Source: a virus
Reading direction: 5' to 3' (one strand)
Virus record (IMG/VR): IMGVR_UViG_3300042879_002600
Span: 1 to 36,893 of that record
Length of the DNA: 36,893 bases
The notes under the pieces were generated by a model that had not been told where the DNA came from, made no database searches, and saw only the letters and a list, made by a program, of their open reading frames with translations. Of the stretch, positions 1 to 36,893 are shown piece after piece. A program made the position numbers and the translations under genes. Numbering within the stretch: the stretch's first letter is position 1; every line of letters starts with the position of its first letter.

Positions 1-127
1 GCCGTAGCCGTAGCCGTCGCCGTAGCCGCTGCCGCGGCCGTCGCCGCTGCCGCTGCCGCGGCCGTCGCCGCCGCCGCCGCCGTAGCCGCCGCCGTCGCCG
101 TAGCCGACGCCGTAGCCGTTGCCGTAG
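1..127. repeat. 127-bp terminal direct repeat (left copy)
   Basis: Bases 1-127 are identical to bases 36767-36893. An exact overlap of 127 bases is what a de Bruijn assembler with k=127 leaves at the ends of a circular contig, so I read it as a closure artefact and not as a physical phage terminal repeat. The unique genome is then about 36,766 bp. Closure is supported because the minus-strand reading frame of the Gly-rich ORF continues across the junction to a stop at 36665-36667. The overlap lies in low-complexity sequence, so the true repeat copy number could be larger. Confidence 0.85.
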
Positions 128-201
128 CCGTAGCCGCCGCCGCTGCCGTAGCCGTAGCCGCCGCCGCTGCCGTCGCCGTAGCCGTTGCCGCCGCCGATCA
201 C
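1..201 (-). CDS. Gly/Tyr/Asp-rich repeat protein, N-terminal part (continues at 36766)
   Basis: Read leftward from a GTG at 201-199, the frame is almost purely alternating GGC-NNC codons, so every second residue is glycine. The others are Tyr, Asp, Ser, Asn, Arg, Val or Gly, and nearly every codon ends in C. The frame is open to base 1, and after circular joining continues from 36766 to a TAA at 36667-36665, giving about 100 residues. The GTG overlaps the TGA of the upstream DUF6948-like gene (GTGA), the start arrangement used at five other junctions in this genome. A weak GGGG-type ribosome site lies just upstream. Internal 24-bp and 30-bp tandem duplications show growth by slippage. No known domain is visible. 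It sits between a Sak4-like recombinase and a DUF669 protein. Alternatively it is a frameshifted C-terminal tail of the DUF6948-like protein, or non-coding repeat DNA. Confidence 0.5.
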   Translation of the reverse strand, partial: MIGGGNGYGDGSGGGYGYGSGGGYGYGNGYGVGYGDGGGYGGGGGDGRGSGSGDGRGSGYGDGYGYG

Positions 202-506
202 GGCGACACCCCGAACGACGCGGCGACACTGTCGACGACGTCGAGCACGCGCCGCACGCCACCAAGCGCCGTGATGCCGGGAACGGGCGCCGTCACCGAC
301 GGCGACGACGGGTCAAGGCCGCGCACGGCAAGGTCGCTCACGCTGCCGTCACCCGTTCGTCCGGCAACATAGTAGCGCCGCAAGTGGCGAGCGCCGGTCA
401 GTTTGACGCCAGAAACACCGTCCCACGCCGCTGCACCGCCGTGCATCATTCCGACGTAGACGCCACAATCACCAGCCACGATCACCAGACTTTTAATTGG
501 TTCCAT
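198..506 (-). CDS. DUF6948-like small phage protein
   Basis: This 102-residue protein begins at ATG 506-504, preceded by AAAGGGAAAAG, which decides the start over an upstream ATG in the longer frame. The N-terminal strand SLVIVAGDCGVYVG, the VKLTGARHLRRYY segment and the SVSDLAVRGLDP segment match the layout I know for DUF6948 proteins. These are small, function-unknown proteins common in phage early regions. The C-terminal third (VRRVLDVVDSVAASFG) also fits. It lies between the Sak4-like gene and the Gly-rich repeat ORF, overlapping the latter by GTGA, so the two are probably translationally coupled. As I recall, some family members carry glycine-rich tails, which makes a -1 frameshift fusion to the repeat frame conceivable. 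No slippery heptamer is visible at the junction. Confidence 0.6.
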   Translation of the reverse strand: MEPIKSLVIVAGDCGVYVGMMHGGAAAWDGVSGVKLTGARHLRRYYVAGRTGDGSVSDLAVRGLDPSSPSVTAPVPGITALGGVRRVLDVVDSVAASFGVSP

Positions 507-531: not shown

Positions 532-1221
532 TCAGGCCGAAATCTTCGCCACGACGTGCCCGAGGTCGGCGGGCTCAAGCGCGTCAAGCTTGCCGCTGCG
601 GTCCTTGGCAACGCTCTTGCCGTCAGTAGCGGTCAAGAGATACCGCGCGGCGACCTTGCCGCCCTGCCCGTCGTCCTCGTCGACGACGATCAAGCGAAAA
701 ACCTCGTCGAAGAGATAGGGCAGCGCTTCGCCGAGCTTCGCGCCTGGCATACCGATCCCGTGCGATACGCGGCCCGTCGCCTCGTCTTTTGTCGACGACA
801 GCTTCGCGCTGAAGTACACGCCACACGACAAGTCGCGGAAAGCGCGCATGATCTTGAGCATCTCGTCGGAGAGGGCGCCGTACGCCTGTCGCGGATCCTT
901 CGTCTTCGACTTCTCAGCCGACAAGACGACCTCGCCAATCTCGCTCACGCTATCGAGCACGACCCACGCGTAGCCATGGTCCCCGGCGCGGAGCTCGGCG
1001 TAGACAGCGCGCAATGCCTCGATGCTCGTGACCTCGATGACGTCGGCGTCGATGTCGGCGCCAGCGAGAGAAAGCAGGCCAGCCTCGGCAGAGATGATCA
1101 GGACCTTGCCCGTGAGACTCGCGATCAACGTCGTCTTTCCAACACCTGCGCCGCCGTACACAAGGATCTTGGGCGCGCGGCTTTCGACAGCGTCACGCAG
1201 GCTTTTCTTTGCAATCGTCAT
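532..1221 (-). CDS. Sak4-like RecA-fold ATPase (phage recombinase)
   Basis: This 229-residue protein starts at ATG 1221, with GGAG about 9 bases upstream; the longer open frame to 1266 has no ribosome site. It has a Walker A motif (GGAGVGKTT, residues 23-31) and a Walker B-like strand ending in WVVLDS near residues 96-101. These are typical of the small AAA/RecA-like P-loop ATPases that phages use for single-strand annealing or recombination (Sak4 group). The rest has the usual pattern of a loop with a conserved KLSSTKDE region and C-terminal beta strands. The gene is the third in the leftward unit and lies upstream of the DUF6948-like, Gly-rich and DUF669 genes. A Sak4-type ATPase near a single-strand-binding-like protein is a familiar phage recombination pairing. 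Partnership with the DUF669 protein is inferred. Confidence 0.75.
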   Translation of the reverse strand: MTIAKKSLRDAVESRAPKILVYGGAGVGKTTLIASLTGKVLIISAEAGLLSLAGADIDADVIEVTSIEALRAVYAELRAGDHGYAWVVLDSVSEIGEVVLSAEKSKTKDPRQAYGALSDEMLKIMRAFRDLSCGVYFSAKLSSTKDEATGRVSHGIGMPGAKLGEALPYLFDEVFRLIVVDEDDGQGGKVAARYLLTATDGKSVAKDRSGKLDALEPADLGHVVAKISA

Positions 1222-5917: not shown

Positions 5918-6236
5918 TCCCGCGGTAGGCTACCACGGACAGGTGCAGGCGAGCAATTAATTGTTTGTTTGCACCCCACACACACAGAAGAAATTTCGCG
6001 TGTGGGTGGGTACAAGAAATTAATTAATCGGAATTGTCAATTCCGATAGATCAATGTTTTTTCAACTAACCCACATCGTGTCAGCGCCGCATTGCAACGC
6101 GGCGAGCACAAATGACGTGCACTGGCTGGCAAGGTAATTCTTTGTAGATCGAGGGCTGCAAAGAAATGCAAAGAATCACCAGCGCGCCGGCTGGCGGTCT
6201 TTCAATGGCGAACCGACCGAGCCGGCGTGAGCAATC
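5918..6236. other. AT-rich non-coding region with inverted and direct repeats (candidate origin)
   Basis: In an otherwise GC-rich genome, 5955-6070 is conspicuously AT-rich (AATTAATTG, AAATTAATTAATC, TTTTTT). It contains CCCACAC/GTGTGGG with an 18-base loop (about 5977-6008), a 21-bp dyad at 6027-6047, a GC hairpin at 6085-6104, a 12-bp inverted repeat with one mismatch (6133-6144 / 6169-6180) and direct repeats of TGCAAAGAA at 6157-6165 and 6167-6175. I see no convincing gene. It lies immediately downstream of the primase and upstream of the terminase genes. Easily melted DNA plus iteron-like repeats suggest a replication origin or a packaging site; this is inference. Confidence 0.45.
6027..6047. 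repeat. perfect 10-bp-arm dyad
   Basis: ATCGGAATTG (6027-6036), T, CAATTCCGAT (6038-6047) is a perfect inverted repeat, followed nine bases later by TTTTTT. It could be a protein-binding dyad in an origin or a weak terminator for the primase transcript. The AT-rich stem and the offset T-run make the terminator reading less certain. Confidence 0.5.
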
Positions 6237-6255
6237 GTGAGCAATCGTGAGCAAT
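6226..6255 (+). repeat. three perfect 10-bp tandem repeats (CGTGAGCAAT)
   Basis: CGTGAGCAAT occurs three times head to tail without mismatch (6226-6235, 6236-6245, 6246-6255). Tandem 10-bp units, one helical turn apart, upstream of the terminase small-subunit-like gene are suited to side-by-side protein binding, as for iterons or a terminase recognition site. The small ORF that ends at 6362 would start inside them. Confidence 0.6.
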
Positions 6256-36052: not shown

Positions 36053-36589
36053 TCACGCGTCGTTGTGAACCTTCGGCGTCGTGCGCCGCTGGCTCAAGAA
36101 CGCAGGCGCGGCAGCCTTAGGCGCACCCACGGTGGGTGCAGCAGCCTTCGCCGCAGGCGCGGCGCCAGCGATGGCTTCGCGGCGCTTGATCTTGTTGCGG
36201 GCTTCCCAATCGCCCTTCGCGGGCTCGACATCCACGGCCGCGATGCACTCGCGACCGACGCACGGGGCGAGGTCGCCACCGCCGACGCCGTAGGCGGCCA
36301 TCAGGCGCACGACGTCGGCACGGCCGCGGGCCATCACTTTGCCGTCCGCGTGGGCGACGACGTAGCGCGACCAGATCTTGCGGCCAGCGTGGTCGCCGTC
36401 GACGATCGTCTCTTCGATGTTCGCCAGCACCGTCGACGGGTTGTTCTTGCTCGGCTGAACCTTCGCGCTGCTGCATGCCACCTGGTAGCGGCCGGGCGGC
36501 AAGAGGTCGAAGGATGGCGCCGCAACGTCCTCGACGTTGAAACCAAGGCTCGTGCTGCTGTCGTTGTCGTCGTTGTTCCAATCGGACAT
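36053..36589 (-). CDS. DUF669 family protein (candidate single-strand DNA-binding)
   Basis: This 178-residue protein starts at ATG 36589 with GAGGATCACA upstream. It begins MSDWNNDDNDSSTSLGFNVE and has LLPPGRYQVACSSAKVQPSK, a strand pair in ANIEETIVDGDHAGRKIWSR, and an Ala/Pro-rich basic tail (AAKAAAPTVGAPKAAAPAFL). This matches the DUF669 family, small proteins found next to phage recombination genes and thought to bind single-stranded DNA. It lies downstream of the Sak4-like, DUF6948-like and Gly-rich genes. Confidence 0.7.
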   Translation of the reverse strand: MSDWNNDDNDSSTSLGFNVEDVAAPSFDLLPPGRYQVACSSAKVQPSKNNPSTVLANIEETIVDGDHAGRKIWSRYVVAHADGKVMARGRADVVRLMAAYGVGGGDLAPCVGRECIAAVDVEPAKGDWEARNKIKRREAIAGAAPAAKAAAPTVGAPKAAAPAFLSQRRTTPKVHNDA

Positions 36590-36664: not shown

Positions 36665-36893
36665 TTATCCGCCGTCGCCGTAGCCGTCGCCGTCGCCGAC
36701 GCCGACGCCGTAGCCGTCGCCGTCGCCGACGCCGACGCCGTAGCCGCCGCCGCTGCCGTCGCCGTAGCCGTAGCCGTAGCCGTCGCCGTAGCCGCTGCCG
36801 CGGCCGTCGCCGCTGCCGCTGCCGCGGCCGTCGCCGCCGCCGCCGCCGTAGCCGCCGCCGTCGCCGTAGCCGACGCCGTAGCCGTTGCCGTAG
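36665..36893 (-). CDS. Gly/Tyr/Asp-rich repeat protein, C-terminal part
   Basis: On the circular molecule this is the second part of the ORF that starts at 201. From 36766 leftward the same GGC-NNC frame gives YGDGSGGGYGVGVGDGDGYG and ends GDGG-TAA at 36667-36665. Bases 36767-36893 duplicate 1-127. A perfect 30-bp unit is tandemly repeated (36686-36715 and 36716-36745). The reading frame survives the closure, with no frame loss in either repeat, which favours coding over neutral repeat DNA. Confidence 0.5.
   Translation of the reverse strand, partial: YGNGYGVGYGDGGGYGGGGGDGRGSGSGDGRGSGYGDGYGYGYGDGSGGGYGVGVGDGDGYGVGVGDGDGYGDGG
36767..36893. repeat. 127-bp terminal direct repeat (right copy)
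   Basis: Identical to 1-127 and best explained as a circular-assembly overlap; see the left copy. Confidence 0.85.

Follow-up and report, generated by a model that had tools for sequence, protein, structure and literature searches.

Comparison across phages shows that a glycine-rich repeat ORF in the window (the whole stretch of viral DNA analyzed here, 36,893 nt) is a protein-coding gene with its own frame and its own overlapping start. The gene orders collected here further show that it comes second, behind DUF6948, in a conserved phage operon (DUF6948 then poly(Gly-X)) shared by hundreds of unrelated phages, and that such ORFs are near-universally paired with DUF6948, a Pfam family (PF22253) of no assigned function that provides the first gene of the pair.

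The Gly-X ORF at the circular junction of the window

The first 127 bases of the window are exactly identical to its last 127 bases, indicating a circular contig of 36,766 bp. The initial annotation had read a Gly-X ORF of about 100 codons across this junction, running from a GTG at 201 that overlaps the upstream TGA to a TAA at 36665, and both the ORF and the overlap were confirmed. The ORF has 303 nt (100 codons plus TAA), is unbroken in frame throughout, and translates as VIGGGNGYGDGSGGGYGYG...GDGDGYGDGG*. The features of the region are listed below.

36767..36893, no strand: terminal overlap, an exact duplicate of 1-127
1..201, minus strand: (Gly-X)n ORF, first two thirds, from the GTG start at 201
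36665..36766, minus strand: (Gly-X)n ORF, last third, with TAA at 36667-36665, joining base 1 on the circle
198..201, minus strand: GTGA overlap of the Gly-X start codon (GTG, 201-199) and the DUF6948 stop codon (TGA, 200-198)
198..506, minus strand: gene for a DUF6948-like protein of 102 aa with a predicted Sm/LSm-like barrel
532..1221, minus strand: Sak4-like AAA ATPase / ssDNA annealing protein, upstream neighbor (phrog_124, E 5e-49)
36053..36589, minus strand: DUF669 / single-strand DNA binding-like protein, downstream neighbor

The order on the minus strand is Sak4-like, DUF6948, Gly-X ORF and DUF669/SSB-like, in line with the placement among recombination and replication genes suggested earlier. 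All Gly codons of the ORF are GGC (56) except one GGA, and every X codon has C in third position. As in the other modules described below, X is mainly Tyr, Ser, Asp or Asn (Tyr, TAC, 15; Asp, GAC, 11; Ser, AGC, 6; Asn, AAC, 2), the remainder being Val (GTC, 5), Arg (CGC, 2) and some Gly. Two tandem repeats had been reported in the array; the 30-bp one is exact (a 36-nt block recurring at a 30-nt step), whereas the 24-bp one is approximate only (TRF, 80% matches).

The contig breaks inside the array, and 127 bp is a typical assembler k-mer, so the assembled length of the array may be a minimum and the true array longer. Five other contigs (L005, L009, L013, L017 and L118) also end inside Gly-X arrays; the arrays thus resemble assembly break points, and array lengths from metagenomes may be minima. 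Elsewhere in the window, a perfect 10-bp unit, CGTGAGCAAT, occurs three times at 6226-6255, between the replication and terminase regions.

Pairing of Gly-X ORFs with DUF6948 across phages

We defined the module as a Gly-X ORF directly downstream of DUF6948 on the same strand, overlapping it or at most 400 nt from its stop codon. This arrangement was found in the window, with the GTGA overlap, and at 224 further loci. When viral contigs were searched by DUF6948 homology alone with three subfamilies (A3, A4 and A8), the Gly-X ORF was adjacent in 74/75, 75/77 and 75/75 scorable loci, these being drawn from the best 80 of several hundred relatives each with query alignments from array-adjacent genes, so that distant DUF6948 branches may differ. 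The 80 A3 loci comprised 74 with an adjacent ORF, one with the ORF at 528 nt and five cut by the contig end; the 80 A4 loci comprised 75 adjacent, three cut and two without (L267 with a degenerate Gly-rich ORF, L288 without any); and the 80 A8 loci comprised 75 adjacent, two cut and three left unscored because a chance reading frame had been followed there. The proposed coupling to the DUF6948-like gene is supported. Among bacterial genome contigs, Gly-X was adjacent to DUF6948 in seven of nine, and L249 was masked by N just inside the array.

The converse search started from the DNA repeat alone. An HMM identified a DUF6948-like ORF ending at most 500 nt upstream in 84 of the 105 arrays with enough upstream sequence, and it matched 89 of 9,113 stop-to-stop ORFs, almost all of them adjoining an array. 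Some of these loci had also gone into the HMM, so the independent figure is that of the Pfam scan, in which DUF6948 was matched by 55 of 85 proteins (the window gene and 84 ORFs lying upstream in related and array loci).

Close relatives of the window DUF6948-like protein were found in five viral loci (67-95% identity), all with a Gly-X ORF behind. The genes overlap as GTGA or ATGA in four of them (L001, L002, L004 and L005; the L004 array is short), and the start/stop overlap of L001, L002 and L005 is the same as in the window. In L003, Gly-X begins ~100 nt downstream and consists of two ORFs that mix GGT, GGC, GGA and GAG codons and have stops in at least one of the other frames. DUF6948 and Gly-X form a natural in-frame fusion in L026, and L093 has two copies of the entire cassette. 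Two to four tandem Gly-X ORFs occur in L007, L003, L043 and L117, those of L007 having mixed codons and being separated by a repeated leader.

Query P0001 had no relative among INPHARED phages; other DUF6948 subfamilies have relatives there. The pair corresponds to gp020/gp019 in Rheinheimera phage Barba8S, gp47/gp46 in Rhodobacter phage RcapNL, and CDS0033/0032 in Pectobacterium phage Taid. Iodobacter phage phiPLPE (L340) has an unannotated Gly-X ORF at about 1187-1410, directly behind the DUF6948-like gp84. In Chlorobiaceae phage CV-1-33 (L342), gene26 is followed by an array annotated in the wrong reading frame as gene25 (L342:3283-3528; MAMAMALAMA...), and the true Gly-X ORF likely starts at an ATG overlapping the DUF6948 Trp codon (MDGINYGYGDGDG...). 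Since isolated phages with cultured hosts carry the pair (Barba, RcapNL, phiPLPE and Pectobacterium phages), its role is directly testable.

No mention of the pair was found in the main text of the Barba transcriptome and genome papers (PMC9305737, PMC6715854), and the parts consulted of a survey of low-complexity proteins in prokaryotes and phages (PMC6821194) do not describe it. The open-access literature, to which the search was confined (subscription journals lay outside its scope), contained no paper with 'DUF6948' or the peptide GYGDGYG. The DUF6948/Gly-X module may thus be new, and at the mechanistic level may be a variant of an Sm core with a disordered tail.

Coding and initiation of the Gly-X ORF

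In a perfect (GGC NNC)n array a stop codon is impossible in any forward frame, so the absence of stops proves nothing, and coding was tested by comparison instead. The DNA pattern (GGC NNC)10 gave at least 120 stretches in IMG/VR. In 132 arrays from 114 loci, X was encoded by TAC (1518), GAC (1006), TCC (792), AAC (508) and AGC (110), other NNC codons being rare; Ser is thus encoded by two unrelated codon families. The pattern (GGT NAT)7 retrieved the same type of chain from phages with 26-41% GC (e.g., L131, L139, L151, L162, L164, L166); pure GGT-GAT runs (e.g., L130, L134, L142) were set aside as unrelated Gly-Asp linkers. The codon style is GGC-NNC in GC-rich phages and GGT-NAT in AT-rich ones, and array GC3 correlates with locus GC (rho 0.56). 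By eye, the translated C-terminal domain of the AT-rich L131, L162 and L164 is the same as that of the GC-rich L099, L113 and L058. GC-rich and AT-rich arrays having the same chain, it is the peptide that is conserved, and the codons follow the genome.

A length comparison across related phages had been set as a test beforehand, and the arrays passed it. Across 115 Barba isolates, the 900 nt surrounding the array are at least 95% identical, with array-region spans of 900, 906, 930 and 942 nt among the isolates listed. In nine Barba isolates compared, the flanks are 99.7-100% identical and the array ORFs measure 210, 216 or 252 nt. In six Pectobacterium phages the array ORFs measure 162, 204, 222 and 258 nt; the 5' flanks of these phages are 89-100% identical, and the content of their arrays differs considerably. 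Every array length difference in both comparisons is a multiple of 6, and the frame is kept, as had been claimed for the window repeat units.

The start codon is also maintained at synonymous sites. The Gly-X chain of A3 and A4 typically starts at an ATG that overlaps the C-terminal Trp codon of DUF6948 in the -1 frame (xxA TGG -> ATG G), and A8 junctions are mostly TGATG or TAATG. Just before the C-terminal TGG, the codon has A as its third base in 46/67 distinct A3 genes (background 21%) and 59/74 distinct A4 genes (background 31%). At internal Trp codons of the same genes, a fair control, the counts are 28/112 and 22/143, with Fisher P values of 1e-8 and 8e-21 that are indicative, the sequences being related. 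Val codons before the C-terminal Trp are GTA in 39 cases and GTG in 6. Together, constancy of the peptide across codon usage, maintenance of the start codon and in-frame length changes bear out the coding status of the ORF, and the start-codon data support independent overlapping initiation over frameshifting.

Frameshifting had been raised earlier; on this view the array is chiefly translated as a C-terminal extension of DUF6948 after a -1 ribosomal frameshift. The array does lie in the -1 frame of DUF6948 in 209/224 loci, and L026 is a natural in-frame fusion, but this single fusion stands against an ATG that is selected at synonymous sites in the Trp overlap, TGATG and TAATG junctions, and ORFs ~100 nt apart in L003 and others. 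The fixed -1 frame is itself accounted for by overlapping initiation, and we consider the frameshift tail quite unlikely as the main reading. It is hardly credible that the array is a DNA-level element or assembly artefact with no protein product: slippage expands GC-rich tandem repeats and the window contig does break in the array, but AT-rich phages encode the same peptide with different codons, the start codon is under selection, and indels come in multiples of 6.

A predicted Sm-like partner and the role of the chain

The window DUF6948-like protein matched PF22253 with E 1e-4 and 22.8 bits, short of the gathering score of 27 bits. It aligned full-length with confident DUF6948 (hhalign probability 100%, E 5.5e-40 for A5 vs A4), a comparison that is not fully independent as A5, with the window protein first, includes A4 members. 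Its best BFVD matches are named DUF6948. AlphaFold2 models of the window protein (pLDDT 90.4) and of a canonical DUF6948 (L104; pLDDT 95.9) have five strands, a short inserted helix and a C-terminal helix, with the five-stranded bent barrel of Sm type present in these predicted models. The matches listed by Foldseek and VIA-align are almost all Sm/LSm chains. The canonical model gave Foldseek E 2e-3 (probability 1.00) and, against 4wzj_M, VIA Z 7.0 with an rmsd of 1.7 A over 62 residues, and the window model gave weaker values (E 0.66, Z 6.1); such middling Z may reflect a mere common arrangement, though the uniformity of the Sm/LSm matches is notable. DUF6948 is thus predicted to be a small Sm/LSm-like beta barrel.

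Among 62 DUF6948 proteins, none has an Sm1-like sequence pattern and seven have an Sm2-like one; a sequence search of DUF6948 against the PDB gave no match even at E 10, and hhalign gave no link to E. coli Hfq. As Sm sequence motifs are absent, the prediction is at the level of the fold and not of Sm family membership. The net charge of DUF6948 is slightly positive on average (means +0.8 and +1.8). One fold match of the models, PDB 3by7, is a marine metagenome protein solved as Sm/LSm-like, which may be of phage origin and fold-related to DUF6948.

Across the 149 arrays retrieved by the DUF6948 searches, the X positions hold Tyr (35.5%), Ser (24.3%), Asp (22.4%) and Asn (7.1%), these four making up 89%; Thr at X in this tally is mostly a frame artefact of GGG-NAC arrays. 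The chain is negatively charged in 122/129 cases, with 15-21% aromatics and less than 1% Lys+Arg, so direct DNA binding by it is unlikely. The predicted Sm-like partner would be the better candidate for nucleic-acid contact, and the composition of the chain would suit the self-association and foci suggested earlier. Large neighbors of the pair, in a descriptive survey of those sampled with no background set, include DNA polymerases, helicases, primases, methyltransferases, a RecT-like protein and a few terminases.

We tentatively favor a phage "split Hfq", in which an Sm-like nucleic-acid-binding core is clustered or regulated by a separately encoded, disordered acidic Gly/Tyr chain. DUF6948 would form an Sm-type ring binding phage RNA or ssDNA, and the co-translated chain would act in trans, much as the tail of Hfq does, which is disordered and either acidic or built of Gly/aromatic repeats. 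The chain might dock on the ring and compete with unspecific nucleic acid, and its many Tyr could draw rings together in a dynamic cluster around replication or recombination intermediates. A broader possibility, which we hold somewhat less firmly, is an undescribed phage ribonucleoprotein system of many environmental tailed phages, with an Sm-like protein and a hypervariable Gly-X condensation or regulatory chain gene forming a membraneless assembly around replication or recombination.

Hfq of E. coli and Caulobacter likewise has an Sm-type barrel (predicted here for the phage protein) with a disordered acidic chain of variable length, and this tail has been described as mimicking nucleic acid and autoregulating the ring (PMC5606850). 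In the phage pair, by contrast, two overlapping genes encode core and chain, Sm1/Sm2 sequence motifs are lacking, and the chain consists of strictly repeated Gly-X dipeptides in place of a linker with an acidic tip. Hfq of Acinetobacter also combines an Sm core with a glycine/aromatic repeat chain, a long tail of GGFGGQ repeats, the number of which matters in vivo (PMC11617691). It differs in being one fused protein with a GGFGGQ unit, encoded by a cellular gene. Eukaryotic RNA-binding proteins of the FUS and hnRNPA1 type have glycine/tyrosine low-complexity domains of Gly, Ser, Tyr, Asn and Asp. The Gly-X chain shares this composition but has Gly strictly at every second residue, almost no Arg, and an ORF of its own. 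Such Gly/Tyr chains have been studied almost entirely in eukaryotes; the phage family offers a free-standing chain, extremely variable in sequence yet in frame, that almost always comes with one small partner. Should this partner prove to bind nucleic acid as a genuine Sm-like protein, DUF6948, a common family, would gain a function, and the pair would be a minimal two-gene model of how disordered chains tune Sm rings.

Two other roles for the chain have to be weighed against a trans-acting tail of an Sm-like core. It could be an acidic decoy, a nucleic-acid mimic that blocks host restriction or defence proteins with DUF6948 as carrier or chaperone; its strongly acidic character with hardly any Lys/Arg, the early-region neighbors and the fast, arms-race-like change of array content between isolates with near-identical flanks are all consistent with this. 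We nevertheless regard the decoy as unlikely, because only about one residue in nine is acidic and Tyr takes a third of X positions, the best PADLOC match is marginal (E 0.07; neither PADLOC nor PHROGs gave anything useful for the pair), and near-fixed pairing with an Sm-like protein in many phages suits a core function better than niche counter-defence. Less probable still is that the array acts as the Gly-Ala repeat of EBNA1 does, as a flexible and slippery linker that withstands AAA+ proteases and stabilizes attached domains: the array does join folded domains in some loci (L099, L113, L103, L075, L079), but in most it makes up nearly all of the protein, leaving no domain to be protected, and Tyr at a third of X should give proteases grip.

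Some arrays carry further domains. Pfam 'TrAA12-like' matches on the arrays themselves were rejected as low-complexity matches. Neither of two recurrent C-terminal domains had a credible Pfam match in the representatives scanned. One is shared by arrays of L099, L113, L058, L106, L010, L109, L131, L162 and L164, reads DGVPTI...FAHG...LTGSCEMGR...AYGG, and occurs in GC-rich and AT-rich phages. The other, ...GPLxLC...LHAT...PxKW...EREIL, is fused to arrays of L037, L103, L108, L125 and L194. In L075 (L075:2-556), a DUF7666 domain is followed by an internal Gly-X array.
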